Part shown: piece after piece, positions 25,014 to 48,752 of the stretch
Layout: every line of letters starts with the position of its first letter
Position numbering within the stretch: position 1 is the first letter of the stretch
Assembly (NCBI GenBank): GCA_030041255.1
Contig: JASHOF010000012.1
Span: 62,001-126,000, forward strand
Source of the DNA: Acetobacteraceae bacterium
Lineage (GTDB): Bacteria > Pseudomonadota > Alphaproteobacteria > Acetobacterales > Acetobacteraceae
Reading direction: 5' to 3'
DNA: 64,000 nucleotides
Program-made: the position numbers and the translations under genes
Notes under the pieces: model-generated
Databases searched by the model: none
Seen by the model: only the letters and a program-made list of their open reading frames with translations
What the model was told of the DNA's origin: nothing

Positions 25014-25026
25014 CACTTTCTCCTGC

Positions 25027-25042: not shown

Positions 25043-25066
25043 AACCATTCCTGCTCAGGGCTCTCA

Positions 25067-26053
25067 ATGGAGCTGTTGGATCGCTGCTTCGAGAGAGCGC
25101 GCCGGGCCAGCCTGAAAGTCGTTCTTCCCGAAGGCCATGATTCCCGTGTGCTTGCCGCCGCCCGGCGGCTCAAGGACGAGGCCATCGCGTGGCCGATCGT
25201 TGTCGGCTCGGCGGCAGCGGTTGGCCGGGCGGCCGAGGCAGCCGGCGTTTCTCCCGGCGGGATCGAAATCGTCGATCCGGCGAGCGACCCGCGCGTGCCA
25301 TCCTTCGGCGCGGCCTGCGCTGCCGGACGGGAGCGGATGACACCGGCCGAAGGAACGCGCCTGATGGCGAGGCCGTTCTATCTTGGCGGCATGATGGTAC
25401 GCGAGGGCGATGCGCACGCCATGGTCGGCGGGGTGGCGGCTCCGACCCGGCGTGTCATCGAAGCGGCGCGCATGACGATCGGCCTGGCCGATGGCATCGC
25501 TTTTCCCTCGAGCTATTTCGTTCTGCGGGTGCCGGACTTTCTGGGGCAGGGCCCGCGGCATCTCCTGTTCGCGGACTGCGCAGTCAATGCCGAGCCGACG
25601 GCCGAGCAGCTTGCGGATATCGCGATGGCCTCGGCGCGGAGCGCCGAGGCGCTGATCGGCGAGCCGGCGCGCGTGGCGATGCTCTCGTTCTCGACCAAGG
25701 GGAGTGCGCAGCATGTCCGTGTGGAGAAGGTGCGCCGCGCAACCGAACTCGTGCGCGAGCGAGCGCCGGGGCTCGCCGTGGATGGGGAGCTGCAGGCCGA
25801 TGCGGCGCTGGTTCCGGCAGTCGCCGGGAAGAAGCTGGCCGAGCCTGGCGCGGTGGCCGGACGCGCCAACGTCCTGATCTTTCCGGATCTCGATGCCGGG
25901 AACATCGGCTACAAGCTGGTGCAGTGGCTGGGCGGGGCGAGCGCGTTCGGGCCGTTCCTGCAGGGCTTTGCCAGGCCGGTCAGCGATCTTTCGCGCGGGG
26001 CGAGCGTGGAGGACATCGTCGCGACCTGCGCCGTGATCCTGGCCACGGCGTGA
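25067..26053 (+). CDS. pta: Phosphate acetyltransferase
   Basis: A 328-residue phosphotransacetylase of the short form without the N-terminal DRTGG domain. Family stretches include [18 protein letters not shown] at the start, [25 protein letters not shown] in the centre, [35 protein letters not shown] and the C-terminal [22 protein letters not shown]. It converts acetyl phosphate, the product of Xsc, into acetyl-CoA. No acetate kinase is adjacent. It is the only plus-strand gene inside the region and converges on tctA with a 32-bp gap. Confidence 0.92.
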
Positions 26054-26085
26054 GCGGAGGCAAAAGGCGGGCATCCTTTCCGGGA

Positions 26086-27615
26086 TCATCGGGGACCACC
26101 CGAAGCCGGAAGCGGTTGCCTCTGCCGGCGGGACAGGACTTCGCGCAGCAGCGGATAGCCGAGAGCGAGCGCCGATGCGCCCATCAGGGTGGCGCTGATC
26201 GGGTCCTTGAAGAAGACGAGCCAGTCGTTGCCGCTGGCGATCATGCTGCGCACGAAAGAGTCCTCGCCGATCGGGCCGAGGATCGCGCCGAGTACCAGGG
26301 GCGCGATCGGGAATGCGAACTTCTCGAACAGATAGCCGAGGATGCCGAAGAAGACGATCATCCAGACATCGGCGAGATCGTTGCGATTGGCGTAGGCGCC
26401 GATAAGGCAGAACATGACGACGATCGCGGAGAGAATGCCCTGCGGGATTTTCAGCACCTTGACGACGACACGGATCCAGAAGAAGCCGAGGAGGCACATG
26501 CCGATGACGCTGACGAACATCGAACTCAGGATCGTGTAGACGAGGAGCGTCGATTTCGGGTCCTGAAACAGCATCGGACCCGGCTGCACGCCATGCAGGA
26601 GGAAGGCGGCGAGGATCACGGCGGTGGCGCCGCTGCCGGGAAGGCCGAGCGTCAGGAGCGGGATCATGTGGCCTGCGACCGAAGCGGTGGCGCCGATCTG
26701 CGGAGCGACGATGCCTTCGGGCAGGCCCGTTCCCAGGAGATGCCGCCGCCGGCCATACTGCTTCTCGATACCATAGGAGATGAAGGAGGTAATCGTCGCC
26801 CCCGCGCCGGGGACGATGCCGATCAGAGTGCCGAGAATGGTGCTGCGAATGATCGTGATCCTGATTGCGATCAGCTCGCTCAGGGTTGGGAATTCGGTGG
26901 CGACGCTTCTGTCGGCATCGTTCGGCTGGCTGACGCGCAATCCCTGGCCGATCCGTGTCAGCACCTCGCTCAGCCCGTACGTGCCGACCAGGATCGCGAC
27001 CAACTGGATGCCGTCCCGAAGGATCGGCACGCCGAAGGTGAAGCGGTCGGTGCCGTAGGTGCTGTCGATGCCGACCGTTGCCACCAGCAATCCGACACAG
27101 AGGCTGATGATGGCGTTGGGTAACGATCTTCCGGCCAGCGCCACGACGGTCGTCAGGCCGAAGAACACGGCAGCGAAATAGTCCGGCGAATCGAAGCTCA
27201 ACGCGACGCTGCTCAGCGGTCCGGCGATCGCGACCATGACCGCCGAAGAAACGAGGCCGCCGATGAGTGCTGCAACCAGGGCCCAGCCGAGGGCCTTGGC
27301 CGGCGCCCCACGCTTGGCCATGGCGTGACCGTCCCACAACATCGGGACGTCCATCGGCTCGCCCGGTATGCGGTAGAGGATGGCCGTGAAGCAGCCCGCG
27401 TACGTGCCGGAGAAGTAGATCGCGGTGAGCAGAATGATCGAAGGTTCGATCGGCATCCGGTAGGTGAAGGGAAGTGCCAAGATGACGCCCATGACCAGGC
27501 CGAGACCGGGCATGATCGAGACCGCCATTCCGACCAGCAGGCCGGTGACGAGCATCAGGAGGTCGAACGGCTGAAAGACGTGTGCGAGGCCATGTCCGAG
27601 ATCGACGAAGGTCAC
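26086..27615 (-). CDS. tctA: Tripartite tricarboxylate transporter, large permease TctA
   Basis: A 509-residue protein with about twelve hydrophobic segments. TctA features are GLGLVMGVILALPFTYRMP (residues 35-55), IYFSGTYAGCFTAILYRIPGEP, and GIVPGAGATITSFISYGIEK in the second half. It moves an organic anion with the help of TctB and the periplasmic TctC. TctA starts 12 bp after tctB and is the last gene of the putative Xsc operon. Sulfoacetate or a similar sulfonated carboxylate is inferred as substrate from the neighbours. Confidence 0.92.
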   Translation of the reverse strand: MTFVDLGHGLAHVFQPFDLLMLVTGLLVGMAVSIMPGLGLVMGVILALPFTYRMPIEPSIILLTAIYFSGTYAGCFTAILYRIPGEPMDVPMLWDGHAMAKRGAPAKALGWALVAALIGGLVSSAVMVAIAGPLSSVALSFDSPDYFAAVFFGLTTVVALAGRSLPNAIISLCVGLLVATVGIDSTYGTDRFTFGVPILRDGIQLVAILVGTYGLSEVLTRIGQGLRVSQPNDADRSVATEFPTLSELIAIRITIIRSTILGTLIGIVPGAGATITSFISYGIEKQYGRRRHLLGTGLPEGIVAPQIGATASVAGHMIPLLTLGLPGSGATAVILAAFLLHGVQPGPMLFQDPKSTLLVYTILSSMFVSVIGMCLLGFFWIRVVVKVLKIPQGILSAIVVMFCLIGAYANRNDLADVWMIVFFGILGYLFEKFAFPIAPLVLGAILGPIGEDSFVRSMIASGNDWLVFFKDPISATLMGASALALGYPLLREVLSRRQRQPLPASGGPR

Positions 27616-27627
27616 GGCACGGCCCTT

Positions 27628-28173
27628 CTAATGGACGCCGAGGAAGGCCATGACCGCGAAGGACACCCGATCGAATGGCGCGATCCCGCCGGGCAGGGAA
27701 ACGTAAACCACCCGCATGAAAAGGAACATGAAGCCGAATGCGACGACGACGCTCAGGCCAACGCCCAAGAGCAATCGCCGGTAGTGCCCGAGATAGAGCA
27801 GGACCAGCGTGTAGATGATCGTGGCGAGGAAAAAGCCCGCCACCGGCAGCAGGAGCAGGTAGCCGAACGTCGCCAGGACGGCGAGCCACACCCGGTGGGG
27901 ATAGAGTTCCGGCGGGCGGAGCAGTGCCTCGATTTCGGCACTGTCGCTGCTCTGCTCCGCCGTGGCTTTGCCGATCCCGAATGCGCTCGCGACGAATCCC
28001 CAGAATGCGGCGAGCAGCATCAGGGCGAGGACGAGCTTCGGCCAGGCATCCGGACCGATCCGGCCGGGAACGGCGCCGAAGTTGAAATGATCGGCGGTGT
28101 CGAAGAGAAAGGCGCCGACGCCGAGCACGACAAGATAAGGCAGGCCGGCCCGGATGCGCGCGAGCGGGCGCAT
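27628..28173 (-). CDS. tctB: Tripartite tricarboxylate transporter, small permease TctB
   Basis: A 181-residue protein with four predicted spans: VLGVGAFLFDT, LVLALMLLAAFWGFVAS, a central pair around VLATFGYLLLLPVAGFFLAT, and a last helix VVVAFGFMFLFMRVVYV. The ATG at 28173 is chosen because upstream in-frame codons overlap tctC. It lies between tctC (14 bp) and tctA (12 bp), the usual TctCBA order. Confidence 0.88.
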   Translation of the reverse strand: MRPLARIRAGLPYLVVLGVGAFLFDTADHFNFGAVPGRIGPDAWPKLVLALMLLAAFWGFVASAFGIGKATAEQSSDSAEIEALLRPPELYPHRVWLAVLATFGYLLLLPVAGFFLATIIYTLVLLYLGHYRRLLLGVGLSVVVAFGFMFLFMRVVYVSLPGGIAPFDRVSFAVMAFLGVH

Positions 28174-28187
28174 TGCCGCGCCCGCGT

Positions 28188-29159
28188 TTATCTCGCTCCC
28201 ATGTTCGTCAGGGCCCGGAACTTCCTGGCCTGATCGAGCCAGGCGTTCATGAACTGCCGCGCTCCATCCATCGGGATGTAGCTGTCGGGATCCGCGTATT
28301 GGCTCTGGAGGTAGGTTTTCCATTCCGCGGTCTTCGCGACCTTGGCCAGTTCATCGGCCAGCAGCTTGACGATCGCGGGCGGGGTTCCGGCCTTGACGAC
28401 GATGGAGCGGAATTGCGGCAGGTCGACGGTATAGCCGAATTCCGTGCCGATCGGCACGTCCTTGAATTGCGGAATGGTGAGGCGGCGGGGATAGAAGAGG
28501 ATCAGCGGGCGGATCTCGCCACCGTCGAAGTAGCTGCGAACATCGCCGGTCTGTTCGTAGAGAAGATCGGTATGGCCGCCGATGATCGAGGTATAGCGCA
28601 GGACCGGCTTGGCATAGGGGATCTCCGTGAGCTTCAGCCCCTTGGTTTGCAAGTAACTGGTGGTGATGTCGTCGGCGCTGCCGTAACCGAGGATCGCGAC
28701 CTTGAGGGGATGCCGTTTCGCACTGGCGACGAATTCGGGCCAGGTTTTCCATGGGCTTCTGGTGCTGACCCAGTAACCGGACGGCTGCTGGATCATGATC
28801 GCCAACGGAATGACCTCTTTCGGGTCGAAGGCCGGACGCGGCCGGGCGAGGAGGGCGTAGGTGTCACCGATCAGGACCGCGAGGGTGTAGCCGTCTGCGG
28901 GCGAGGTGAGAAGCTTGGTCATTCCGACCATGCCGGTGGCGCCGGGCACGTTGAGCACCGGGAAGGACGCGCCGAGATCGTGCGCCATGATTTTCCCCGC
29001 GGTGCGCGCGAGGAGGTCGGCACCGCCGCCAGGACCCCAGGGCACGATGAAATCGATCGGATGGTCGGGATATCGCGCCTGGGCAGGGCTAGCCGGCGCG
29101 GACAGTACGAGTGCCAAGAGCAGAGCGCCGATCCAGACGCATTTCCTCGCAGCAGACAT
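28188..29159 (-). CDS. tctC: Tripartite tricarboxylate transporter substrate-binding protein, TctC/Bug type
   Basis: A 323-residue periplasmic protein. The signal peptide is MSAARKCVWIGALLLALVLS to AQA, followed by the Bug-family opening YPDHPIDFIVPWGPGGGADLLAR. Further family parts are FPVLNVPGATGMVGMTKLL and GYTLAVLIGDTYALLAR. Bug proteins bind carboxylates through two water-mediated contacts at one end of the ligand. The C-terminal half has an aromatic, basic stretch that could take a sulfonate. It follows the CoA-ligase alpha gene by 108 bp. Confidence 0.9.
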   Translation of the reverse strand: MSAARKCVWIGALLLALVLSAPASPAQARYPDHPIDFIVPWGPGGGADLLARTAGKIMAHDLGASFPVLNVPGATGMVGMTKLLTSPADGYTLAVLIGDTYALLARPRPAFDPKEVIPLAIMIQQPSGYWVSTRSPWKTWPEFVASAKRHPLKVAILGYGSADDITTSYLQTKGLKLTEIPYAKPVLRYTSIIGGHTDLLYEQTGDVRSYFDGGEIRPLILFYPRRLTIPQFKDVPIGTEFGYTVDLPQFRSIVVKAGTPPAIVKLLADELAKVAKTAEWKTYLQSQYADPDSYIPMDGARQFMNAWLDQARKFRALTNMGAR

Positions 29160-29199
29160 GGCTCCCTCCTTGTTGTGCGTGGCGTTTCCCATCGGACGA

Positions 29200-29231
29200 G
29201 CCGACGCGGCCGTCCCTTCCGCGGCATCGGC
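29200..29231. other. Intercistronic hairpin upstream of tctC
   Basis: Two stem blocks, 29200-29204 with 29227-29231 and 29205-29209 with 29219-29223, form a ten-pair hairpin with a 3-nt bulge and a 9-nt loop. It lies 41 bp upstream of the tctC start, between ligase and transporter genes. Confidence 0.4.
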
Positions 29232-29267
29232 GGCAGTGAGTGCCTGTTGCACGGACGAGAGCATGCA

Positions 29268-30170
29268 TCAGGCCCTCTCGGGAACAAGAGGCGAAAGGCG
29301 CCGGGCGAGCGCAGCGGGGATCGCGTGCGGCGTGTCGACGACCGTGACGCCCGCCCGCTCCAGCGCTGCGCGCTTGCCGGCATAGCTTCCGGCGCCAGCC
29401 TCGACGATGGCGCCGGCGTGGCCCATGCGCCGGCCGGGCGGTGCGACGCGGCCGGCGATGAAGGCTGCGACCGGCTTTGCCATGCTGGCGGCGTAGCGCG
29501 CGGCGTCCTCTTCCATCGCACCGCCGATCTCGCCGACCAGCACGATGGCATCGGTGCGGGAATCACGATCGAGCGCCTGCAAGGCTTCCTCGGCTGTCGT
29601 GCCGAGTATCGCGTCGCCGCCGATGCCGATGAAGCTCGACTGGCCGAGACCGGCGCGCGTCAGGTTGAGGCAGACGAGGGTGCCGAGGCTGCCGCTGCGC
29701 GAGATCACGCCGATCCGCCCGGGCCTGAAGATGTTGGCGTTGTGGCCCGGCATGATGCCGACGAACGCCTCGCCCGGGGTGACCAATCCGGCAGTGTTCG
29801 CACCGACGACGCGCGCCCCGGAGGCACGGGCATAAGAAAAAACGGCAAGCATATCGTGCACCGGGACGTGCTCGGTCAGCACGACGAGGCCTCTGATGCC
29901 GGCTTCGATCGCGTCGAGCGCGGCATCCTTGACGGCGGGCGGCGGGACGAACATCACCGCGATATCGACTTCCATCCGGGCGAAGGCGGCCGAGGCGGAG
30001 GCGAAGACCGGAAGGCCAAGGTGGGTGACGCCCGCACGTTTCGGGTTCGTGCCAGCCACGACGTTCGTGCCGGCCTCGAGCATGCGCCCGGTCCAGAAGG
30101 TTCCCTGGGCGCCGGTTACCCCCTGGATCAGGACACGATCGGAGCGACGGAGGATGGGAAATGCCGTCAT
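29268..30170 (-). CDS. ADP-forming CoA ligase alpha subunit, SucD type; probable sulfoacetate-CoA ligase
   Basis: A 300-residue CoA-binding subunit. The Rossmann start is RVLIQGVTGAQGTFWTGRML, the nucleotide/CoA parts include VVAGTNPKRAG and GVISRSGSLGTLVCLNL, and the phosphorylated histidine is His251 in RRMGHAGAIVEAG. It is expected to form a phosphohistidine intermediate with the beta subunit, whose stop overlaps its start by 4 bp. Housekeeping SucCD normally sits with sucAB or mdh, which are absent here. Context (acylating aldehyde dehydrogenase and Xsc) points to sulfoacetate activation, as in the two-subunit SauCD ligase described from Bilophila. A malate or succinate ligase role is the alternative. 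Confidence 0.88.
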   Translation of the reverse strand: MTAFPILRRSDRVLIQGVTGAQGTFWTGRMLEAGTNVVAGTNPKRAGVTHLGLPVFASASAAFARMEVDIAVMFVPPPAVKDAALDAIEAGIRGLVVLTEHVPVHDMLAVFSYARASGARVVGANTAGLVTPGEAFVGIMPGHNANIFRPGRIGVISRSGSLGTLVCLNLTRAGLGQSSFIGIGGDAILGTTAEEALQALDRDSRTDAIVLVGEIGGAMEEDAARYAASMAKPVAAFIAGRVAPPGRRMGHAGAIVEAGAGSYAGKRAALERAGVTVVDTPHAIPAALARRLSPLVPERA

Positions 30171-31294
30171 GAAGCGGCCTCGACCGCAGCACGGACGGCA
30201 TCTTCCATGAGGTCGAAAGGTTCCTTGCCGAATTCGCTCCTGATGAGCGAAACCGCTTCGTCTTCGCCCGTGCCATGGACCGAGAAGAACACCGGAATGG
30301 CTGGCTTGAGGCGGCGCCAGGCTTCGACGACGCCGCGCGCCATGACGTCGGTGCGGGCGAAGGCGCCGCAGAAATTGACGACCAAGGAGCGCAGGTTCGG
30401 ATTGCCGAGCACGAGGGCGAGAGCCGGTTCGGCCTTTACATAGGCATCACCGCCGATTTCGAGAAAATTCGCCGGCCGGCCACCGAAATGGCTCACCATG
30501 TCCATGGTGGTCATGGTGAGTCCGGCGCCGTTGGCGAGAACGCCGACATTGCCATCGAGGGCGATGTATTTGAGGCCGAGGGCGGCGGCATGCCGTTCGA
30601 TGCCAGTCAGCGGATCCGCAACTGCGCAGGCGGCGAGCGTTGGCTGGCGGAAGGAAGCTGCGTCATCGAGGATGAACTTGCAGTCGAGAGCGACGAAGGA
30701 GTGATCCGCAAGCTCTGCCAGGGGGTTGATCTCGATCAGTTCGGCATCGGTCTGCCGCCACAGGCGATAGAGCCGAGCCAGGACATCCGCCAGCGCCGGT
30801 TTCACATGATCGACACCCATGCCTTCGAGCATCGCGGCGGCGGCGGTGGCATCGAACCTGTCGAGATCGCGGATGAGGTGGCGTGCGATGGTGCCGGACC
30901 CGGCAGCGGCGATTTCCTCGATATCCATGCCGCCGGCGGGAGAAAACATGACGAGAGGAGAGCGGTCACGAGGGGACTGGAGGACGGCGCAATAGAATTC
31001 GCCGATGAGCGGAAGTCTCGGCTCGACCAGTACGGCCACGGGGCGATGGCCGGCGAATGTGCGGCTGAGGATATCTTCGGCCGCCGCACGCGCCTCATCG
31101 GGGCTGCCGGCCATGCGGACGCCGCCCATCCGGCCGCGCTTGCCGGCGGGAATCTGTGCCTTGACCACGCACTGCCCGAGGCACCGTGCCACATTCGCGG
31201 CGGTGTCGGGATTTTCGCACCACGCGCCGGCCGGCACCGGGATGCCGGCGGGTGCGAGGATTTCGGTCTTGGCGTGGTATTCGAGCACATTCAT
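30167..31294 (-). CDS. ADP-forming CoA ligase beta subunit, SucC type; probable sulfoacetate-CoA ligase
   Basis: A 375-residue ATP-grasp subunit, slightly shorter than usual SucC. It opens MNVLEYHAKTEILAPAGIPV. The nucleotide loop reads VVKAQIPAGKRGRMGGV (residues 43-59), where housekeeping SucC has HAGGRGKAGG, so this is a divergent branch. Further parts are GVLANGAGLTMTTMDMVSHF, FLEIGGDA instead of the usual VGGGA, and VNFCGAFARTD instead of NIFGGI. The acidic metal site EINPLAEL is retained. It begins 9 bp after the aldehyde dehydrogenase stop. The deviations support a substrate other than succinate, but the exact acid is inferred from neighbours. Confidence 0.87.
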   Translation of the reverse strand: MNVLEYHAKTEILAPAGIPVPAGAWCENPDTAANVARCLGQCVVKAQIPAGKRGRMGGVRMAGSPDEARAAAEDILSRTFAGHRPVAVLVEPRLPLIGEFYCAVLQSPRDRSPLVMFSPAGGMDIEEIAAAGSGTIARHLIRDLDRFDATAAAAMLEGMGVDHVKPALADVLARLYRLWRQTDAELIEINPLAELADHSFVALDCKFILDDAASFRQPTLAACAVADPLTGIERHAAALGLKYIALDGNVGVLANGAGLTMTTMDMVSHFGGRPANFLEIGGDAYVKAEPALALVLGNPNLRSLVVNFCGAFARTDVMARGVVEAWRRLKPAIPVFFSVHGTGEDEAVSLIRSEFGKEPFDLMEDAVRAAVEAAS

Positions 31295-31303
31295 CGCCCC
31301 GGC

Positions 31304-32728
31304 CTACTTCCCGTATTTCGCCCAGTAGCGTTTGAACAGCGTCTCCTCGGTCGGCCGGTCTTCGGGAATGGGCCGGACGAGATGGGTGATGTTCAGGAAA
31401 TGCCGGTAGCTCAGATTTTCGCTGATCGAGTTCTTCTGCCAGGTACCGCAGCCCATGCTGAGGGTGAAATTCAGGCCGCTGTCGAAGCCGCCGCCGTTGC
31501 CGAAGGTGTGGGCGAAATTCACCAGTACCCGCACGACATCGACGTTGGCGGCGAGGATGCGAGGACGCTCCGGATCCCTGGTGTGAATGCCACAGGAATG
31601 CCCGCGGCCCTGATAGTCGAGAATGCGGCGGACGATTTCCACGGCCGCTTCGAAATCCGGGGCGCGGTAGAGCGCCAGGACCAGCGAGAGCTTTTCCCCG
31701 GAAAGAGGATGGGCGGGGCCGTAGCCGGTTTCTTCGACCATGAAGAAACGCGCCGCGGCGGCTGGCCTGGGCAGGGCGAACGCCTCGGCGAGGACCGGGG
31801 CGTCCCTGGCGATGAGATCGCGGTTCAGCCGGCCGCCCTGCCAGAGAGCCGAGCGCACGCGTCGGGCGGCATCTGCCGTGCAGAGATAGCCGCCCGCGCG
31901 CTGCAAGGCGGCGAGTGCTTCGTCGTAGATGGTATCGATGATGACGAGGGAATTTTCGGAAGAGCAGGACGTCGCATTGTCGAAGGTCTTGGAGGCCGCG
32001 ATCTTCTGCGCGGCATCCTCGAGGTCTGCTGTTTCGTCGATGATGACCGGCACGTTGCCGGCACCGACGCCGATGGCCGGAGTGCCGCTCTTGTAGGCAC
32101 GGCGGACATTGTCCTGCGAGCCGGTGACGACGACGAGGTCGGCGGCTTCCATCAGGGCCTGGGTCATCTCTTTGGAGGCCGGCGGCGGAAGGACCTGGAC
32201 GAGGTCGGCCGAAGCGCCGATGCGGGCGAGTTCACTGCGCATGGCCGTGACGGTCGCCGAAGTGGTGGCGAAGCCGCTCGGCGAGGGTGCTATGACAACC
32301 GCGTTCCGTCCCTTCAGGGCCATCATGGCCTTGTTGACGGCGGTGGCGGAGGGGTTGGTCGAGGGGGTGACGGCGGCGACGACGCCGACCGGCTTGGCGA
32401 ACTTGACGATCCCGCTGGCCGGGTCCTCCTCGATCATGCCGACCGATCTGGCGCGCAGGAGATCGCGCAACGTGCCGAATGTCTTGCGCTGGTTCTTGAT
32501 GATCTTGTCGGGGACATTGCCGAGACCGGTGTCCTCGACTGCGAGCCTGGCGAGCGAGGCGGCACGGTCGGGGCGATAGAGGGACCAGGCAAGCGCGATC
32601 ACCAATTCGTCGGTGCGCTCCTGACCGGCATTGGCGATCGCAGCCATGGCGGTGCGGGCGCGTTCGATCAGCGGCTCGACGACGGCCTTGGCAGCTCTGG
32701 CTTCGATGCCGGTGGGTATCTGGTCCAT
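31304..32728 (-). CDS. sauS: CoA-acylating aldehyde dehydrogenase, probable sulfoacetaldehyde dehydrogenase (SauS)
   Basis: A 474-residue member of the acylating aldehyde dehydrogenase group. ATG at 32728 follows a GGGAGG ribosome site. The cofactor part is PVGVVAAVTPSTNPSATAVN (residues 113-132), and the catalytic cysteine is Cys255 in NATSCSSENS. The C-terminal part has ARFFMVEETGYGPAHPLSGEKL and GHSCGIHTRD, as in EutE/PduP/SauS proteins. It would reduce sulfoacetyl-CoA to sulfoacetaldehyde with NAD(P)H, or run in reverse. Placement between Xsc and a CoA ligase makes sulfoacetaldehyde the likely substrate; acetaldehyde or another aldehyde cannot be excluded by motifs. Confidence 0.85.
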   Translation of the reverse strand: MDQIPTGIEARAAKAVVEPLIERARTAMAAIANAGQERTDELVIALAWSLYRPDRAASLARLAVEDTGLGNVPDKIIKNQRKTFGTLRDLLRARSVGMIEEDPASGIVKFAKPVGVVAAVTPSTNPSATAVNKAMMALKGRNAVVIAPSPSGFATTSATVTAMRSELARIGASADLVQVLPPPASKEMTQALMEAADLVVVTGSQDNVRRAYKSGTPAIGVGAGNVPVIIDETADLEDAAQKIAASKTFDNATSCSSENSLVIIDTIYDEALAALQRAGGYLCTADAARRVRSALWQGGRLNRDLIARDAPVLAEAFALPRPAAAARFFMVEETGYGPAHPLSGEKLSLVLALYRAPDFEAAVEIVRRILDYQGRGHSCGIHTRDPERPRILAANVDVVRVLVNFAHTFGNGGGFDSGLNFTLSMGCGTWQKNSISENLSYRHFLNITHLVRPIPEDRPTEETLFKRYWAKYGK

Positions 32729-32763
32729 GGCGAATTCCGACCTCCCTCCCCTCGCCTCTGCGA

Positions 32764-32795
32764 TGGCCGCCGCAGAATGGCGCCTGTGGCGGCCA
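32764..32795. other. Intercistronic hairpin between xsc and the aldehyde dehydrogenase gene
   Basis: Perfect 8-bp arms at 32764-32771 and 32788-32795 (TGGCCGCC and complement) enclose a 16-nt loop in the 91-bp gap. No T-run follows on the minus strand, so read-through with possible 3'-end protection of xsc mRNA is more likely than termination. Confidence 0.5.
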
Positions 32796-32819
32796 CCCCC
32801 CTGGAGACCCAGGCCAGAC

Positions 32820-34571
32820 TCAGGCAACCGTGTAAGCGGCGTATTTCTGGAGCAGCCGCTTGGGCTTGGAGAGAGCGTCACGGCGGAAGGGATCGCCGAG
32901 TTCCTGGGTCACCATCATTTCGAGGACGGTCGTCTTGCCGTCGCGCTGCGCGCGGCAGGCGCTTGCCAGCGCGTCACCGACGTCGGAGATTTTGTCGACC
33001 ACCTGGCCCTCGGCCCCCATGGCGCGGGCGATCGCGGCGAAGCTCGGGTTCTTGAGATTGGTGCCGACGAAACGGCGGGCGTAGAAATCGACCTGGTTCT
33101 TCTTCTCGGCACCCCACTGGCCGTTGTTGAAGACGACCGCGGTGACGGGGAGATTCTCGCGCACGGCGGTGAGGATTTCGCCAAAGCTCATGGTGAAGGC
33201 GCCGTCGCCCACGTAGGCGATGGCCGGGCGTTCCGGGGCGGCAGCCTTGGCGCCGATCGCGACCGGGAAGGCGTAGCCGCAATTTCCGAAGCTCATGGCG
33301 GCGAGCATGCTGCGCGGCTGCTCGAAGCGGAGGTAGCTGTTCGATACCGAGCAGATATTGCCGATATCGGTGGAGACGATGGCGCCCTTCGGCATGGCCT
33401 CTTCGAGAGCGCGGAGCATCTGTCTCGGATGCATAGCGGAGGCGGTACTGCCGACCTCGCGGCTGAAATCGTCGGTTTCCTGGGTCCAGTGGCCGAGTTC
33501 GCTTTCCCAGGCAGACTTTTCGGCGGCGACGGTCTCGAGCCGCTGCTGGCGCGATGCGGTGCCGCGGAGCGGGCGGTTGGCGAGCGCGGAAAGGAGCGCC
33601 TCCGTCACCTCTGCGGCGTCGCCCGCGATGCCGACCGACATTTTCTTGACGAGGCCAAGAGATTTCGGATCAGCATCGACCTGGATGATCCTGGCGGTGC
33701 GCGGCCAGTAGTCGATGCCGTGCTGGGGGAGCGTGCCGAACGGGCCGAGGCGCGTGCCGAGCGCGAGCACGACGTCGGCGCGGGCGATCAGCTTCATCGC
33801 CGCCTTGGAACCCTGATAGCCGAGCGGTCCGGCCCAGAGCGGGTGGTTGGCGGGGAAGCTGTCGTTGTGGAGATAGCTCGTGACAACGGGGGCGCCGAGC
33901 AGTTCGGCGAGCGATGTACAGGCCTCGCCCGCGCCGGCCGTGATGACGCCGCCGCCGGCGACGATGACCGGGAAGGTTGCATCGGCGAGAAGTGCCGCCG
34001 CGGCTCCGACCGCGTGCGGGCTGCCGGCGCCGCGCTCGATCCGGATCGGTTCGGGGATCTCGTAGTCGTCCACGGCATAGAAATAGTCGCGTGGAATGTT
34101 GAGCTGGGTCGGGCCGAGCTCGAGGATGGCGCGGTCGAAGCAGCGGGCGGTGATTTCCGCCATCCGGCGCGAATTGTTGACGTGCCCCTGGTATTTCGTG
34201 ATCCCCGAGAAGATCGGGAGCTGGTCGGTTTCCTGGAAGCCGCCGAGGCCCATCGTCGAAGACCCCGATTCGGGGGTGATGGCGACGACGGGGCTGTGCG
34301 CCCAATAGGCGGCGGCGATGGCGGTGACGAAATTCGTGATGCCGGGGCCGTTCTGGCCGATGCAGACGCCGTGGCGGCCGCTGATGCGGGCGTAGCCGTC
34401 TGCCATGTGGGCGGCGCCTTGTTCGTGAACGGTGGGGATGAAGCGGATGCCGGCTGCGGGAAAGAGATCCAGCGCGTCCATGTAGGCGGAGCCGACGATG
34501 CCGAACATATTCCTGACGCCCTGGACATGCAGGGTTTCGACGAAGGCTTCGCTGGCGGTCATCCTGGTCAT
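32820..34571 (-). CDS. xsc: Sulfoacetaldehyde acetyltransferase
   Basis: A 583-residue thiamine-diphosphate enzyme. ATG at 34571 overlaps the IclR regulator stop by 4 bp. The activating glutamate is Glu50 in PTVHEQGAAHMADGYAR, and the cofactor motif runs from GDG (455-457) to NN (482-483). Xsc-specific stretches are GIVGSAYMDALDLFP, TPESGSSTMGLGGFQETDQL and NNGQWGAEKKNQVDFY. The enzyme converts sulfoacetaldehyde and phosphate to acetyl phosphate and sulfite, the desulfonation step of C2 sulfonate catabolism. The phosphotransacetylase at 25067 takes the acetyl phosphate. Acetolactate synthase, the nearest confusable family, lacks these stretches. Confidence 0.93.
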   Translation of the reverse strand: MTRMTASEAFVETLHVQGVRNMFGIVGSAYMDALDLFPAAGIRFIPTVHEQGAAHMADGYARISGRHGVCIGQNGPGITNFVTAIAAAYWAHSPVVAITPESGSSTMGLGGFQETDQLPIFSGITKYQGHVNNSRRMAEITARCFDRAILELGPTQLNIPRDYFYAVDDYEIPEPIRIERGAGSPHAVGAAAALLADATFPVIVAGGGVITAGAGEACTSLAELLGAPVVTSYLHNDSFPANHPLWAGPLGYQGSKAAMKLIARADVVLALGTRLGPFGTLPQHGIDYWPRTARIIQVDADPKSLGLVKKMSVGIAGDAAEVTEALLSALANRPLRGTASRQQRLETVAAEKSAWESELGHWTQETDDFSREVGSTASAMHPRQMLRALEEAMPKGAIVSTDIGNICSVSNSYLRFEQPRSMLAAMSFGNCGYAFPVAIGAKAAAPERPAIAYVGDGAFTMSFGEILTAVRENLPVTAVVFNNGQWGAEKKNQVDFYARRFVGTNLKNPSFAAIARAMGAEGQVVDKISDVGDALASACRAQRDGKTTVLEMMVTQELGDPFRRDALSKPKRLLQKYAAYTVA

Positions 34572-35536: not shown

Positions 35537-35722
35537 GGAGTGGTACCTTTCCTCTTGAAGGCTGATACACGACGTCTCTCGGGTCAAGAGCGATACCACC
35601 ATCGAGATTCGGCGTCTCCGATGTCAGGACCGTGGAGGCCGACGGAAACGAGCCCCGGCCCTTGGCGGGAAAGCCTCTCTTCTATAGGCAGAGCGGCAAG
35701 CAGCCGACGAGGGCCTGGCATC

Positions 35723-38038
35723 ATGACCAAATTCGGTACCGCGCAATCCGTCCGTCGGGTCGAGGATCCGAGACTGTTGCAAGGACGGGGCAGATATACC
35801 GACGATATCGCTCCGCCCGGCGTGCTGCACGCCGTCATGGTGCGCAGCCCGCATGCGCATGCGCGGATACGCGGAATCGACGGCGAGGCCGCGCGGCGGG
35901 TGCCCGGGGTGGCTGGCATCTTCACGGCGGCCGATCTTGCCGCCGACGGAGTGGGCGCGATGCCGTGCGAGGTTTCATTGAAGAACCGGGACGGCTCGAA
36001 GAACGCCGAACCGCCCCGCCCGGCCCTGGCCGGCGAGGTGGCGAAGTATGTCGGCGACGGGGTCGCGCTGGTGGTCGCAGAGACGCTGAATGCGGCGCGC
36101 GACGGCGCGGCGGCAGTCTCTGTGGACTATGACGTGCTGGCGTCGATCACCGACCTCTCGCGGGTGACGGAGGAGGGTGAGCCGCGGGTATGGGAGGGGA
36201 GTGCCCGGAACATCTGCTTCGATTGGGAGATCGGAGATCGGGCCGCCACCGAGGCCGCGTTTGCGAAAGCGAGCCATGTCAGCCGGATCCAGGTTGTCAA
36301 CAACCGCATCGTGGTCTGCTCGATGGAGACGCGAGCGGCGGTTGCGCAGTATGACGAGGCAAGCGGGCGCTGGACGCTCGAAACCTGCACGCAGGGGGGT
36401 TGGCTCCTGAAGCGGCATCTCGGCACGGTATTCGGGGTCGATCCGGAGCGGTTCCTGGTACTGACGCCCGACGTGGGCGGCGGCTTCGGGATGAAGGCTT
36501 TTCTTTATCCGGAGCACGTTCTGGTGTGCTTCGCCGCGCGACGGCTGGGCAGGACCGTGAAATGGACCGCGGAGCGTTCGGAGGCGTTTCTTTCCGACAC
36601 GCATGGGCGCGACAATGTCTCGGAGGCCGCGCTGGCGCTCGGGCCGGATGGCCAGTTCCTGGCTCTGCGCACCCGTATTGTCGCCAATATGGGCGCCTAT
36701 CTTTCCGCCTTTGCGCCCTATATCCCGACCTATGCGGGGACGTGGGTGCTGCCCGGGGTGTACCAGTTCCGCACCGCGTATGCGAATGTCATCGGCGTGT
36801 TCACCAACACGGTGCCGGTGGATGCCTATCGGGGGGCGGGGCGCCCGGAAAGCAACTACCTGCTGGAGCGGTTGATCGACGCAGCGGCCGTGGAGATCGG
36901 GATCGACCGGGTGGCGTTGCGGCGGAGGAACATGGTGAAGTCCTCGGCGCTGCCATGGACGACGCCGGTCGGCAAAGTGTACGATTCCGGCGATTTCGAG
37001 CGGGTGCTCGATGTGGCGCTCGGCAAGGCCGATTGGGCGGGATTTCCGGCTAGAAGGAGTGCTTCGCTCGCCAAGGGAAAGAAGCGCGGCATCGGGCTTG
37101 CGTATTATCTCGAATCGACCGGTGGAAGCCCGACCGAACGCGCGGAAATCCGGTTCAGCGACGATCGGTTCGTCGATGTTTTCGTTGGCACGCAGACCAA
37201 CGGCCAGGGACACGACACCGCCTATGTGCAACTGACCTCGGAACGGCTGGGTGTCGAGGCAGAGCGCATTCGTATCCGCCAGGGAGACACGGATCAGATT
37301 CCGGAGGGTGGTGGCACGGGCGGTGCCCGCAGCCTCTATTCGGAGGGCCAGGCAATCCTGGCCACGACCGCGAGCGTGATCGAAAAAGGGCGCAAGGCGG
37401 CGTCCGAAGCGCTGGAAGCGGCAGCGGAGGATATTGCCTTCGAGGACGGCAGCTTCCGCATCGCGGGCACCGACCGGGCGATCGAGATTCTCGAGCTTGC
37501 GGCGAGGCAAAAGGCCAAGGTTGCGGCGGGAGAGCAGGCGACATTGCTCGATTCGGTCGAGATTGCGCCGATTCCGGCGGCGACCTTCCCGAACGGTTGC
37601 CACATCGCAGAAGTGGAAATCGATCCGCAGACCGGCGTCGTGGATGTCGTGCGCTACACGGTCGCGGATGACTTCGGGAGGCTGGTCAACCCGATGATTG
37701 TCCGTGGCCAGGTGCATGGCGGCGTTGCCCAGGGAATCGGGCAGGCGGCGAATGAACTGACTGCGTACGACAGCGAGTCCGGACAATTGCTGTCGGGGAG
37801 CTTCATGGATTATGCGCTTCCGCGAGCCGACGACCTGCCGGACATCGATGTCGAATTCGTGGAAATCCCGTGCCAGACGAATCCGTTGGGCGTGAAGGGC
37901 GCGGGCGAGGCGGGATCTGTCGGCAGTCCGCCGGCGGTGATCAATGCCGTCATTGACGGCTTGCGCGATGCCGGAGTGACCAGGTTCGACATGCCGGCGA
38001 GCCCGGAGCGCGTCTGGCGGGCGTTGCAGCACGCCTGA
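35723..38038 (+). CDS. Xanthine dehydrogenase family protein, molybdopterin-binding large subunit (first of two)
   Basis: A 771-residue Moco subunit. ATG at 35723 is preceded by GAGGG; the long in-frame upstream extension runs antisense through the regulator and is not coding. Landmarks are the opening RRVEDPRLLQGRGRYTDDI, the pterin loop GGGFGMK (252-258), AYRGAGR (368-374), and the catalytic glutamate Glu729 in KGAGEAG. AYRGAGR is the form II signature; genuine CO dehydrogenase has AYRCSFR. No FAD or 2Fe-2S subunit gene lies on either side. The reaction is hydroxylation or oxidation of an unknown aldehyde or heterocycle. Confidence 0.9.
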   Translation: MTKFGTAQSVRRVEDPRLLQGRGRYTDDIAPPGVLHAVMVRSPHAHARIRGIDGEAARRVPGVAGIFTAADLAADGVGAMPCEVSLKNRDGSKNAEPPRPALAGEVAKYVGDGVALVVAETLNAARDGAAAVSVDYDVLASITDLSRVTEEGEPRVWEGSARNICFDWEIGDRAATEAAFAKASHVSRIQVVNNRIVVCSMETRAAVAQYDEASGRWTLETCTQGGWLLKRHLGTVFGVDPERFLVLTPDVGGGFGMKAFLYPEHVLVCFAARRLGRTVKWTAERSEAFLSDTHGRDNVSEAALALGPDGQFLALRTRIVANMGAYLSAFAPYIPTYAGTWVLPGVYQFRTAYANVIGVFTNTVPVDAYRGAGRPESNYLLERLIDAAAVEIGIDRVALRRRNMVKSSALPWTTPVGKVYDSGDFERVLDVALGKADWAGFPARRSASLAKGKKRGIGLAYYLESTGGSPTERAEIRFSDDRFVDVFVGTQTNGQGHDTAYVQLTSERLGVEAERIRIRQGDTDQIPEGGGTGGARSLYSEGQAILATTASVIEKGRKAASEALEAAAEDIAFEDGSFRIAGTDRAIEILELAARQKAKVAAGEQATLLDSVEIAPIPAATFPNGCHIAEVEIDPQTGVVDVVRYTVADDFGRLVNPMIVRGQVHGGVAQGIGQAANELTAYDSESGQLLSGSFMDYALPRADDLPDIDVEFVEIPCQTNPLGVKGAGEAGSVGSPPAVINAVIDGLRDAGVTRFDMPASPERVWRALQHA

Positions 38039-38150
38039 CGGCGCCGGCCTTTCCCCGCGCGGGCCACCGGCCGCGATTCCGCGGCGGTTTCCCTCGGCGT
38101 CGGTCAACTGAGAAGTCGGCGGGGGATTCGTTGCAGCGAAGGGAATTGCC

Positions 38151-40481
38151 ATGGCGCCATTGCAGGCGACTTCTGTCAGGCGGCGCGAGGATCGGCGGCT
38201 GCTGACGGGTGGGGGACGCTACGTTGCCGACGGGAAGCGGCCGGACATGCTCGAGGCGGTACTGGTGCGTTCGCCGCACGCCCATGCGGAGGTGCGGGGC
38301 ATCGACGGCGCGGCGGCGGCGGCCGTTCCCGGCTTCGTGGGCTTCTACACGCATCGGGATCTGAGTGCAGTCGGACCTATTCCAGGCGGCATCGGCTTTC
38401 CTCGTCCGGACGGGACGCCGGCGCCGCGGACAGACCGTTCCCTTCTGGCCAGGGAACGCGTGCGCTTCGTCGGCGAGCCGGTGGCGCTGGTGATCGCGGA
38501 GACCCGCGCTCAAGCCGAGGAAGCGGCGGAAAGGGTCGTCGTGGAGTACGCGGCTTTGCCGGTGGTGACCGACCCGGCGGAAGCGATGCGGCCGGACGCA
38601 CCGGCGGTATGGGACGAGACGCCCGACAATATCGCGTTTCTCTGGAAGGGAGGCGATGCCGAGCGGACCGCGGCCGGGTTGCGGGCTGCGGCGCGTGTCG
38701 CACGCCTGCGCTTCTCGATCTCGCGCGTGACCGCCAATTCTCTCGAACCGCGCGGCGCCTGGGCGGAAATCGAGCCTGACGGGCGCCTCGCGCTGCATGC
38801 CTCGATCCAGGCTCCGTTTGGACTCCGGAACGGGCTGGCCGAGAACAATCTTCACCTGCAACCGACCGACATCCGGGTGCTGGCCGAGGATGTCGGCGGC
38901 TCGTTCGGCATGAAGGCCGGCGTGCAGGCGGAGTACGCGCTGGTCGCGTGGGCGGCGCTGAGGCTCAGGAGACCGGTCCGCTGGGTGGCGGATCGGACGG
39001 AGGGGTTTCTCAGCGACGAGCAGGCTCGCGAGATGCAGATCGCGGCCGAACTGGGGCTCGACGAGGAGGGACGGTTCACCGCCCTGAAGGTGCGATGGGA
39101 CGTGAACCTGGGAGCCTATGTATCCGGCCGCTCGGCGTGGTGCGTGGGCAACATCGGCGGCATTGCCGGTGTGTACGCGATCCCCGCGATCTACGCCGAA
39201 TGCTGCGGGGTCTTGACCCATACCGTGCCCACGGCGGCGTATCGGGGCGCCGGGCGGCCCGAGGCGACTTACACCATCGAGCAGATCATCGACAGGGCGG
39301 CAGGAGAGCTGAAGATCGATCCGTTCGAGCTGAGGCGGCGCAACCTGATCGCACCCGAAGCGATGCCGTACCGGACCGCCCTCACCTTCACGTACGATTG
39401 CGGAGAATTCGAAGGGAACATGAAGGCGGCTGCGGATCTGGCGGATCTCGAGAGCTTCCCGACGCGGCGCGAAGAGGCGCGGCAAGCGGGCAAGCTGCGC
39501 GGAATCGGCATCTGCAACTGCATCGAGGTTGCCGGCGGACCGTTCCTGCGCCCGGGAAAGGACATGGCGAATCTGCGCCTGGCGCAAGACGGGACGCTCA
39601 TTCTGCACACCGGGACGATGTCGGTCGGCCAGGGCGTGGAAACCGCGTTCTGCCAGCTTATTGCCGAGAGGTTCGGGGTGCCGATCGAGAAGGTCCGTTA
39701 TGCGCAGGGAGACACCGACGATCTTCCCTATGGCAGGGGCAATGGCGGTTCGAGTTCGTTGTGCACGGGCGGCTCGGCGGTGTGGCTGGCCGCGGACAGG
39801 CTGATCGAAAGCGCGAAGCGGGTCGCGGCGGAACGCCTGGAGGCCGCGGTGGAGGATGTGACGTTCGAAGGCGGGGCGTTCACCATCGCCGGAACGGATC
39901 GTTCCGTGGATCTGGCGACGGTGGCGCGAGCGGCCGCCGATGCCGCCGATGGCGGCGAGGGCGAGGAGGGTGGCCTGGCGGAACGGGGGGAATTCGTTCC
40001 TGGCGCGGTCAACTATCCCAATGGCACGCATATCTGCGAAGTGGAGATCGATCCGGATACCGGGGTTGCAGAGATCGTGCGCTACAGCGCGGTGGAGGAG
40101 CTTGGCGCGATCCTCAACCCGATGCTCGTGGCCGGGCAGTTGCATGGCGGCATTGCGCAGGGAATCGGCCAGGCGATGGGCGAAAAGATCGTGCACGACC
40201 GGGAAAGCGGGCAGCTTCTGACGGCCTCCTTCATGGACTACGCGATGCCGCGGGCCGGAGATCTGCCGGAGTTCCGGCTGGCGACGCGCGAAGTCCCGAC
40301 CAAGGCCAACCCGATCGGTGCCAAGGGGGTCGGGGAGGCCGGTAACGTGGGCGCGCTGGCCGCGGCGATGAATGCGGTGAACGCGGCGCTGGCGCCGCTC
40401 GGGGTCGATCATCTCGACATGCCGGCGACGCCGGCCAGGGTCTGGCAAGCGATTCAGGCGGCGCAGAACGGGCGGGATTGA
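38151..40481 (+). CDS. Xanthine dehydrogenase family protein, molybdopterin-binding large subunit (second of two)
   Basis: A 776-residue paralogue of the preceding gene, 112 bp downstream. It opens TSVRRREDRRLLTGGGRYV. The pterin loop is GGSFGMK (249-255), the substrate loop AYRGAGR (363-369) and the catalytic glutamate Glu729 in KGVGEAG, the same residue number as in the first copy. The two proteins differ widely outside these motifs, so the duplication is old and the substrates may differ. Like its neighbour it lacks partner FAD and Fe-S genes here. It is followed by a PQQ dehydrogenase and a cytochrome c. Confidence 0.9.
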   Translation: MAPLQATSVRRREDRRLLTGGGRYVADGKRPDMLEAVLVRSPHAHAEVRGIDGAAAAAVPGFVGFYTHRDLSAVGPIPGGIGFPRPDGTPAPRTDRSLLARERVRFVGEPVALVIAETRAQAEEAAERVVVEYAALPVVTDPAEAMRPDAPAVWDETPDNIAFLWKGGDAERTAAGLRAAARVARLRFSISRVTANSLEPRGAWAEIEPDGRLALHASIQAPFGLRNGLAENNLHLQPTDIRVLAEDVGGSFGMKAGVQAEYALVAWAALRLRRPVRWVADRTEGFLSDEQAREMQIAAELGLDEEGRFTALKVRWDVNLGAYVSGRSAWCVGNIGGIAGVYAIPAIYAECCGVLTHTVPTAAYRGAGRPEATYTIEQIIDRAAGELKIDPFELRRRNLIAPEAMPYRTALTFTYDCGEFEGNMKAAADLADLESFPTRREEARQAGKLRGIGICNCIEVAGGPFLRPGKDMANLRLAQDGTLILHTGTMSVGQGVETAFCQLIAERFGVPIEKVRYAQGDTDDLPYGRGNGGSSSLCTGGSAVWLAADRLIESAKRVAAERLEAAVEDVTFEGGAFTIAGTDRSVDLATVARAAADAADGGEGEEGGLAERGEFVPGAVNYPNGTHICEVEIDPDTGVAEIVRYSAVEELGAILNPMLVAGQLHGGIAQGIGQAMGEKIVHDRESGQLLTASFMDYAMPRAGDLPEFRLATREVPTKANPIGAKGVGEAGNVGALAAAMNAVNAALAPLGVDHLDMPATPARVWQAIQAAQNGRD

Positions 40482-40609: not shown

Positions 40610-42265
40610 ATGAAAATCAGCTTTCCATCACGCGCGGCAGTGAGTGCGGCGGGATCCGTAGCGGCGATTCTTGCCGTGATGGCGATCACGCCGGCGCTCG
40701 GGGCCGGCAGCACCGTGGCGTGGCCGACATACGGCGGCGATGACGCGAATACGCGGTACGCCGATCTGGATCAGATCAACGCACAGAACGTGAACTCGCT
40801 GGCGCCAGCCTGGATTTACCAGACCGGCGTGATGGGCGCGGACGAGGGCACGCCGCTCGTCGTCGGCGACACGATGTATGTGACGACCGGCGTCAACGAC
40901 ACGATCATTGCGCTGGATGCCGCGAGCGGGAAGATGCGCTGGAGGCATGCGACGCCGCTCGGATTTGTCAGCCTTTGTTGCGGCACCAACAATCGTGGTG
41001 TTGCCGTGGACGGCAACAAGGTCTTTTACGCGACCCTGGACGGCCACCTGATCGCGCTCGATGCGGCGAGCGGCAAAGAGCTCTGGAGCGTCGTGCTCGG
41101 GGATCCGAAGGACGGGTTCAGCGAGACGATGGCGCCGTTGGCGTGGAATGGGAAAATCTATATCGGCAGCGCCGGCGGGGAGTACGGGATCCGCGGATCA
41201 CTGAGCGCGTATTCCGAAGCGGATGGCAAGGAGCTCTGGCGCTGGTGGACGGTCTCGCCGGGCTGGGAAGGGACCTACGCGACCGAGGTGCATGGGGTTT
41301 CCCTGCACCGCGACATCGCAGAGGAGAAAGCGGAGGCCGCCAAGTGGGCGGATGCCTGGCAACATGGCGGCGGGCCGGTCTGGATGACGCCTGCACTGGA
41401 TGCGGCGACGGGGACGATCTACGCGAGCACGGGAAATCCGGCGCCGCAGCTTCTCGGGGCGGTGCGGCCAGGGGACAACCTCTATACCGATTCGATCGTC
41501 GCGCTGGATGCGAACACCGGCGCGCTGAAATGGGCCTATCAGGAAACGCCGCATGATCTCTGGGATTACGATGCGACCAGCCCGCCGCTCCTGTTCGATG
41601 TGACCGGTCCGAGCGGAGCAAAGGTTCCTGCGGTCGGCGAGGCGAGCAAGACCGGGTGGTTCTATGTCGTGGAGAGGGACAACGGCAAATTGCTCAGCGT
41701 ATCGGAGCCCTTTGCGCCGCAGATGAATATCTACGTGCCGCCGGGCCCGAACGGGATCACGGTGGAACCCGGAGCGCTTGGCGGGGCCAACTGGTCGCCG
41801 ACATCGTTCAACCCCGGGCTCGGCCTTGCGTATGTGGCGTCTGTCGTGCAGCCGCGGGTGGACAAGCCGATTCCGTACGCTGCCTGGAAGACCGGCGGGG
41901 CGCGCTGGGCCGGCAGCCGCGAGGTACCGATCCCTGGAGAGAAGGGCTCGGGAACCTTCACGGCGATCGATGTCACGACCGGCAAGGTGGCCTGGCAGGA
42001 CAAGACGAGCTTGCCGCTGATCGGCGGCTCGCTCGCGCTTCCCGACCTGACGTTCGTCGGCGAAGGAGACGGCATGTTCGACGCCATGGACGCGAAGAGC
42101 GGGAAGATTCTCTGGCAGTTCCAGACCGGGGCGGGGATCTCGGCGGCGCCGATGGCGTACGAACTGAACGGGCGGGAATACATCGCCGTGCAGTCGGGCG
42201 GGAACACGTTGCTGGGCACGGCGCCTGGCGATGATGTCATCGTGTTCGCCCTGCCGCAGAAGTGA
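40610..42265 (+). CDS. PQQ-dependent alcohol/aldehyde dehydrogenase, predicted lanthanide-type
   Basis: A 551-residue periplasmic quinoprotein. The start ATG at 40610 gives a Sec signal peptide ending about AL-GA. Eight-bladed propeller signatures recur (ALDAASGK repeats, ALDANTGALKW, AMDAKSGKILWQFQTGAG). The vicinal disulfide is Cys123-Cys124. Metal ligands expected from methanol dehydrogenases are Glu191, Asn276 and catalytic Asp319. A further Asp321 two residues on (WDYD) is the marker of lanthanide-dependent XoxF/ExaF/PedH enzymes; calcium enzymes have alanine or serine there. The protein is shorter than XoxF (about 600). Alcohol or aldehyde oxidation is inferred. A cytochrome c gene follows as likely electron acceptor. 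Confidence 0.88.
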   Translation: MKISFPSRAAVSAAGSVAAILAVMAITPALGAGSTVAWPTYGGDDANTRYADLDQINAQNVNSLAPAWIYQTGVMGADEGTPLVVGDTMYVTTGVNDTIIALDAASGKMRWRHATPLGFVSLCCGTNNRGVAVDGNKVFYATLDGHLIALDAASGKELWSVVLGDPKDGFSETMAPLAWNGKIYIGSAGGEYGIRGSLSAYSEADGKELWRWWTVSPGWEGTYATEVHGVSLHRDIAEEKAEAAKWADAWQHGGGPVWMTPALDAATGTIYASTGNPAPQLLGAVRPGDNLYTDSIVALDANTGALKWAYQETPHDLWDYDATSPPLLFDVTGPSGAKVPAVGEASKTGWFYVVERDNGKLLSVSEPFAPQMNIYVPPGPNGITVEPGALGGANWSPTSFNPGLGLAYVASVVQPRVDKPIPYAAWKTGGARWAGSREVPIPGEKGSGTFTAIDVTTGKVAWQDKTSLPLIGGSLALPDLTFVGEGDGMFDAMDAKSGKILWQFQTGAGISAAPMAYELNGREYIAVQSGGNTLLGTAPGDDVIVFALPQK

Positions 42266-42296
42266 GGGCGGCAAGGCGGCCGGCCTGGCCAGCGAT

Positions 42297-42722
42297 TTGA
42301 ACCTGACGAAGACCGCTCTTCCGGGACTGCTGATCGTCGCGATCGGGGCCAGCGGCGGCGGCGCGCTTGCCGGCGGGGCAAGCCCGGCCGCCCTGCCGTC
42401 CTTCACCGCGGCGCAGGCGGAGGACGGAGCGGCGGCGTACGAAAATGATTGTTCGCAATGTCATGGCGCGAATCTCGAGGGCTACACGGGGCCGGCGCTG
42501 ACGGGGCCGCAGTTCACGCAGGCCTTTGGCTCCATCAGCGCCCTGCTCGGCTTCGTTTCCACCAGCATGCCGTACGATGCGCCGGGCAGCCTTTCCCACG
42601 CAGACTATGTGGCGATCGTCGCCTTCATCCTGAGCAGGAACGGGCTGGCCGCCGGAAAGGCTGCCTTGACCTACAAGGCTGCCATGGGATCGGAGGCGCT
42701 GCCCTGGGGTCCAGGGAAGTGA
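42297..42722 (+). CDS. Secreted c-type cytochrome
   Basis: A 141-residue protein if TTG at 42297 is the start, which gives a clean signal peptide (NLTKTALPGLLIVAIGA to ALAGG). In-frame ATG codons at 42231 and 42234 lie inside the dehydrogenase gene and would spoil the signal. One haem site, CSQCH, is at residues 52-56; a methionine in STSMPYDAPG is the probable sixth ligand. The layout with YENDCSQCHGANLEGYTGPAL is typical of monohaem class I cytochromes paired with quinoproteins. The start codon remains uncertain. Confidence 0.8.
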   Translation: MNLTKTALPGLLIVAIGASGGGALAGGASPAALPSFTAAQAEDGAAAYENDCSQCHGANLEGYTGPALTGPQFTQAFGSISALLGFVSTSMPYDAPGSLSHADYVAIVAFILSRNGLAAGKAALTYKAAMGSEALPWGPGK

Positions 42723-48741: not shown

Positions 48742-48752
48742 AGGCAGCCGCG

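Follow-up and report, generated by a model that had tools for sequence, protein, structure and literature searches.

Two adjacent genes of an Acetobacteraceae genome, L1 and L2, encode large subunits (L) of molybdenum hydroxylases, and neither a [2Fe-2S] subunit (S) nor an FAD subunit (M) is encoded beside them. They lie in a window of 64,000 bases, positions 62001-126000 of contig C34 of genome G000 (C numbers denote contigs). The explanation favored here, at a probability of roughly 65% on comparison of sequences, is that one S-M pair acts as a hub that serves interchangeable Ls in trans, L1 and L2 among them. Both would be Mo-pterin catalytic subunits from a clade encoded without electron-transfer partners of its own. 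They would most likely assemble in trans with form-II-type coxS and coxM products, here those of contig C103. Electrons from Mo would travel through the two [2Fe-2S] clusters of S to the FAD of M, and from there to an acceptor, and CoxG may dock the complex at the membrane. As a rule each genome would have one S-M hub and several Ls of different substrate specificity. The sequence-only reading of the window had offered either a distant shared small subunit or an unusual exit for electrons. The first is well supported by comparative genomics, through the clade-specific lack of S, the co-occurrence of L and M, S-M modules without L and the tree of the large subunits. The second, by way of a PQQ dehydrogenase and a cytochrome c, was not supported. 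Standard S and M genes do exist elsewhere in the genome, which is the first half of what that reading had taken to speak against its proposal; the hub S and M are predicted to bind the lone Ls.

Features of L1 and L2

L1 and L2 are separated by 112 bases and share 44% identity over 771 residues. Both contained the domains Ald_Xan_dh_C (PF01315), MoCoBD_1 (PF02738) and MoCoBD_2 (PF20256), far over the Pfam cut-offs, placing them among the large subunits of the xanthine oxidase family. The motif AYRGAGR was found at position 368 of L1 and position 363 of L2, and the catalytic glutamate is residue 729 in both proteins. The domains, AYRGAGR, Glu729 and the open reading frames confirmed that these are tandem large subunits with intact molybdenum cofactor motifs. 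No signal peptide was evident by eye in either protein. An AlphaFold2 model of L1 had a mean pLDDT of 85.5 and a pTM of 0.85. It aligned to the large chain of CO dehydrogenase over 749-751 residues (Z 45, rmsd 2.6-2.7), and L1 is accordingly modeled with the large-chain fold of the xanthine oxidase family.

The coordinates of L1, L2 and the genes discussed with them are given in Table 1. The window held no PF01799 match (S-type [2Fe-2S]) and no PF00941 match (FAD domain, M), as had been claimed when the nearby absence of Fe-S and FAD partner genes was first remarked upon. The PQQ dehydrogenase and cytochrome c reported downstream of the pair were also present.

Table 1. Location of L1, L2, neighboring genes in the window and the proposed hub operon. 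Positions are those of the window unless a contig is named.
Feature	Position	Strand	Remarks
Tripartite tricarboxylate-type transporter TctA/TctB/TctC	26086..29264	-	Domain search
Two-subunit succinyl-CoA-ligase-like pair	29268..31294 (30167-31294 + 29268-30170)	-	Domain / NCBIfam search
Acylating sulfoacetaldehyde dehydrogenase SauS	31304..32881	-	NF047625 over cut-off
Sulfoacetaldehyde acetyltransferase Xsc	32820..34559	-	TIGR03457 over cut-off
IclR-family regulator, divergent from L1	34568..35602	-	Domain search
L1, Mo-hydroxylase large subunit, lone (satellite) clade	35723..38038	+	771 aa, ORF without internal stop
L2, second Mo-hydroxylase large subunit, lone clade	38151..40481	+	776 aa, ORF without internal stop
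PQQ alcohol-dehydrogenase family protein	40610..42265	+	PF01011; TIGR03075 at 434 bits, below its cut-off of 480
Cytochrome c	42231..42722	+	PF13442; start codon uncertain
Form-II-type S-L-M operon (proposed hub S and M)	C103, ~42.05-46.09 kb		Genome search

S and M genes elsewhere in the genome

Eleven PF01799 matches were found in G000, comprising ten S genes and one fragment at a contig end, together with six PF00941 matches. The nearest S on the contig of L1 and L2 is about 80 kb from L2, beside a distant L. This L and a similar one on C153 are presumably of the Ior type. Eight of the ten S genes sit beside an L of their own. Those on C103 (two), C135, C19, C177 and C111 are accompanied by M as well as L, and those on C153 and C34 by an Ior-type L. 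The remaining two, on C150 and C89, are at contig ends and might belong with the Ior-type Ls of C117 and C120. For three Ls of the genome no partner is visible, namely L1, L2 and one on C96. Among Ls with a full set of partners, the closest to L1 is that of the S-L-M operon on C103, at 48-49% identity.

Two further loci of the genome are of note for their arrangement. On C19 (locus L026, 5517-11536) two tandem Ls of another clade accompany one M and one S, an arrangement of tandem Ls and a single S-M pair that thus also exists outside the clade of L1 and L2. On C34, outside the window (locus L034, 3641-9267), an S and an Ior-type L are followed by a cytochrome c and then a PQQ dehydrogenase, which are 41% and 40% relatives of those behind L2. 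This Ior-type L has a twin-arginine-like start, as judged by eye.

Phylogeny and residue conservation of the large subunits

A total of 120 Ls were collected and 99 rows were used for a quick tree, in which some branches are long. The 21 rows dropped came from 20 loci and were mostly near-duplicates, including both Ls of locus L204 and the C177 L of G000. Ls of the S-L-M type (41 rows, 40 with S) were sister to Ls of the lone type (54 rows, 53 without S), with SH-aLRT supports of 100 and 97 for the two clades, respectively. Two of the 53 S-less rows in the lone clade lie at contig ends. The label S or no S changed three times on the tree, compared to about 32 times in shuffles. An enlarged tree with 40 more rows, trimmed to the last 800 residues, gave supports of 98 and 86, the latter for the lone clade; shadow frames (e.g., L230, L243, L247, L252, L259, L260) were not counted. 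The sole member of the lone clade with an S nearby, L198, directly follows an S-L-M operon. A second lone-type L next to such an operon, at L204, was outside the tree rows. Given their position both have S and M at hand anyway.

The group that contains L1 comprises 25 lone Ls, 22 from the family of the window or titled Acetobacteraceae and 3 titled only Proteobacteria or Rhodospirillales. L2 grouped with a 75% relative in G018. There were 252 columns at least 95% invariant in the S-L-M Ls, and L1 keeps 175 of these and L2 keeps 168. The lone Ls as a whole keep 158-194 (mean 179), and an outgroup L accompanied by its own S keeps 164, so this measure of conservation separates weakly. In 56 of the 252 columns the lone clade most often has another letter or a gap, as in GGGFGMK instead of GGGFGSK. 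Close to the active site, 96% of lone rows carry Met in place of Ser at L1 position 257. Compared to the S-L-M Ls, the lone clade also has a short deletion near 471-481, close to the active site.

Adjacency of S in 13 genomes

The presence of S beside L was surveyed in 13 genomes of 92-100% completeness, which gave 93 L matches. An S was classed as adjacent if it lay on the same strand and no more than 4 kb away. Among Ls at least 44% identical to L1, S was adjacent to 11 of 50 and absent from 39. Among those below 44%, S was adjacent to 42 of 43 and absent from 1. Eleven of the 13 genomes had exactly one L of at least 44% identity with an S, plus one to five lone Ls. An M was found beside that S-bearing L in all six genomes inspected (G000, G020, G032, G044, G050 and G057). 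In the remaining two genomes, G007 and G039, hub-type S and M were adjacent with no L between or beside them. The FAD oxidoreductase gene after S-M in G007 is 63% identical to the one after S-L-M in G000, and this common neighbor indicates that the G007 locus is the same as that of G000 minus the L. G039 and G007 also carry one or two Ls in or next to the S-L-M clade, so S-M may serve those Ls there.

L1 and L2 could use another S of their genome in place of the form-II-type hub, either an Ior-type S or the S and M of the operon on C135, C19, C111 or C177. The number of S and M genes in G000 leaves room for this. The S of C135 scored 209 bits against the hub S, and the most distant hub-type S tested elsewhere scored 208-214 bits. 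Furthermore, for 26 of the 76 S matches in the 13 genomes no L was listed within 4 kb, which makes other unattached S proteins conceivable partners; of the few inspected, some stood beside a distant Ior-type L or at the end of a contig. The use of another S is nevertheless unlikely, as the lone clade has the form-II S-L-M Ls for its sister group and is found together with hub-type M, and the S genes of G000 either have their own L or lie at contig ends.

Co-occurrence of L and M and S-M modules without L

The proposed shared S-M hub was examined across 290 Alphaproteobacteria genomes, drawn at a completeness of at least 95%, with L counted at E <= 1e-150 and hub-type M at E <= 1e-50. Copies of L were classed per genome, with a top class of at least three. 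L was found in 157 genomes, hub-type M in 155 and both in 153, with L alone in four and M alone in two (G094 and G200). Of 128 genomes with at least two Ls, 125 had a hub-type M and three had none at the cut-off. The hub-type M was single copy in 147 of 155 genomes. The Fisher p for co-occurrence of 4.6e-75 is an overstatement, since kinship was ignored and related genomes are not independent, and since the L of the S-L-M operons themselves was counted, which makes part of the co-occurrence trivial. The four genomes with L and without M at the cut-off (G285, G316, G329 and G346) are drafts of 95-97% completeness in 30-470 contigs. The stretches read near their Ls showed neither S nor M. Given their draft state, missing sequence may explain the absence of M; a true absence of hub M in these genomes is also possible.

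Forty M loci were read, hand-picked from the listed rows and mostly from genomes of few contigs, with G094 chosen for its M without L. Thirty-six were S-L-M and four were S-M without L, in G175, G280, G094 and one of three loci in G326. The G175 module consists of coxG-S-M-coxD-coxE-xdhC in a row with no L, the coxD-like gene being an AAA gene. This genome has four Ls, three of them in tandem, and all were placed in the lone clade. G280 is a single contig of 4.15 Mb and has one hub-type M, in an S-M pair without L. It carries 21 Ls at E <= 1e-140 (loci L251-L268), two of which are broken. No S was found within about 4 kb of these 21 Ls, and for one of them an M-like fragment lies on the opposite strand at a distance of about 3.7 kb. 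On the tree 14 were placed in the lone clade, 1 sister to it and 4 outside both clades, leaving the 2 broken Ls unplaced. None of the 19 placed Ls belonged to the S-L-M clade. In G000, G175 and G280 alike, the [2Fe-2S] domain of hub S and the FAD domain of hub M are retained.

These modules also bear on whether lone Ls work without Fe-S and FAD, either in non-redox reactions (e.g., as hydratases) or by direct transfer to a soluble acceptor. The absence of S and M nearby and the four genomes with L and no detected hub M are in keeping with such activity. It is improbable, however, as the Mo-pterin domains, fold and active-site motifs are retained and L-less S-M modules are maintained, in G175 alongside maturation genes. 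A Michael hydratase of the Mo family, once proposed as a hydratase, has itself been described as a heterotrimer with Fe-S and FAD (PMC4052635).

Relation to known systems

Form II CoxL is defined by AYRGAGR and the coxSLM gene order and its role is unclear (PMC13203968). L1 and L2 share AYRGAGR and the domain layout with form II and are in a sister position in the tree, and the S and M of form II are their proposed partners. However, they are not in the coxS-coxL-coxM order, have no S or M beside them and fall outside the S-L-M clade, in the sister clade (SH-aLRT 97 in the quick tree). L1 and L2 therefore share the form II motif but neither its operon nor its clade. They have AYRGAGR and not the AYXCSFR motif of form I CoxL (CO dehydrogenase). 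The best NCBIfam models for L1, L2, hub S and hub M were those of the glyceraldehyde dehydrogenase alpha, beta and gamma subunits (NF041018-20; PDB 4zoh), but the equivalog cut-offs were not reached (L1 577 and L2 550 compared to 790, M 212 compared to 350 and S 219 compared to 290). Quinoline 2-oxidoreductase and CO dehydrogenases (1t3q, 1n61 and 8uem) matched the L1 model in large-chain fold over 746-751 residues at 32-37% identity, and the best sequence matches came from this family too. These enzymes are dedicated S-M-L heterotrimers. Rieske oxygenase and P450 multi-oxygenase systems have many catalytic components and one ferredoxin or reductase. Their sharing of one electron-transfer module would be analogous to the S-M hub, with proteins that are unrelated and partners that are transient, whereas S and M would here be integral subunits. 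The open-access literature searched yielded no account of an S-M module shared between large subunits.

Form-II coxS and coxM, joined in some genomes by coxG and maturation genes, may plausibly form a general electron-transfer chassis across Alphaproteobacteria. Several Ls with genes at other loci, about 20 at most in one genome, would be exchanged on it to give a combinatorial family of molybdenum hydroxylases, and form II CO dehydrogenase would be only one loading of the chassis. If one S-M pair serves many Ls, many lone Mo-hydroxylase Ls gain a predicted partner, and failed expression of lone L genes alone would be explained by the missing S-M. The role of form II CO dehydrogenase would become testable, with its S and M mattering for every satellite enzyme. 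Loss of one operon should then silence many activities at once.

L1 orthologues and the PQQ and cytochrome genes

An L1 orthologue was found in 22 of 59 relatives, 21 at 64-71% identity and one at 95%, some of them incomplete. No S or M was seen at the L1 orthologue loci read, several of which are on short contigs. L2 was beside the L1 orthologue only in the 95% sister. The 75% L2 orthologue occurs singly, as do L1 orthologues. Apart from the 95% sister, the L1 orthologue loci read had no relative of the PQQ protein or cytochrome next to the orthologue. Among 29 loci read, an RND efflux permease was near in 15 (two of them outside the L1 group), and in 11 (L041, L042, L119 and others) it was 40-147 bases upstream on the same strand. 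Clustering of neighbor genes around lone Ls gave mostly shadow ORFs of high-GC DNA.

An obligate L1-L2 heterodimer that passes electrons to the adjoining PQQ dehydrogenase and cytochrome c is very improbable. The genes are adjacent and co-oriented, and the relatives of the PQQ protein and cytochrome described above adjoin an Ior-type S and L elsewhere in G000. However, the single occurrence of L1 orthologues and of the 75% L2 orthologue led to rejection of the obligate heterodimer, and the whole arrangement is found in two sister genomes only. By eye the N-terminus of the PQQ protein and the start of the cytochrome c are signal-like, which together with the lack of a signal peptide in L1 and L2 argues against direct electron transfer between them. 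The Ior-type L on C34 differs from L1 and L2 in its twin-arginine-like start. Exit of electrons via the PQQ protein and cytochrome, as the sequence-only reading had suggested, was rejected on this contrast and on the orthologue loci without these genes. A functional tie of the two proteins to L1 and L2 is unproven.

An absence of S and M caused by misassembly or draft gaps was rejected as an extremely remote prospect because, although G000 is a draft of 4.35 Mb in 187 contigs, the pair is well inside a contig of 216,656 bases, a relative has the same layout and lone Ls recur in the single-contig genomes G044 and G280.

Sulfoacetate-type cluster and other neighbors

The L1-L2 pair is divergent from a sulfoacetate-type cluster encoding IclR, Xsc, SauS, a CoA ligase and a Tct transporter. 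The cluster spans 23865-35602 of the window and also holds phosphotransacetylase and citrate synthase genes. Xsc and SauS exceeded equivalog cut-offs, and the succinyl-CoA-ligase-like pair is a candidate sulfoacetate-CoA ligase. Xsc was found in 3 of 36 genomes searched of the window's family (G000, G004 and G001). G001 has the Xsc, SauS and CoA-ligase genes and its best L2 match is 48%. No L was found in the G001 stretch by the Xsc cluster, which stops at a contig end 248 bases past IclR, so L1 and L2 could still have been located there. The order L1-L2-PQQ-cytochrome opposite the Xsc cluster was found only in the two sister genomes G000 and G004 (L040 and the G004 locus were counted as one). 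Elsewhere, in the loci read, L1 orthologues adjoin genes other than the sulfoacetate cluster. The case for membership of L1 and L2 in a sulfoacetate pathway is weak.

The Xsc reaction releases sulfite. A protein of the sulfite oxidase family (PF00174, PF03404) is encoded at 49965-50969 of the window, about 15 kb from Xsc. The pair of genes at 47410-49946, which we take to be DUF1800/DUF1501-like, has homologues (39-42%) on contig C3 of G175, where they follow the three tandem lone Ls (locus L270, 8004-15190).
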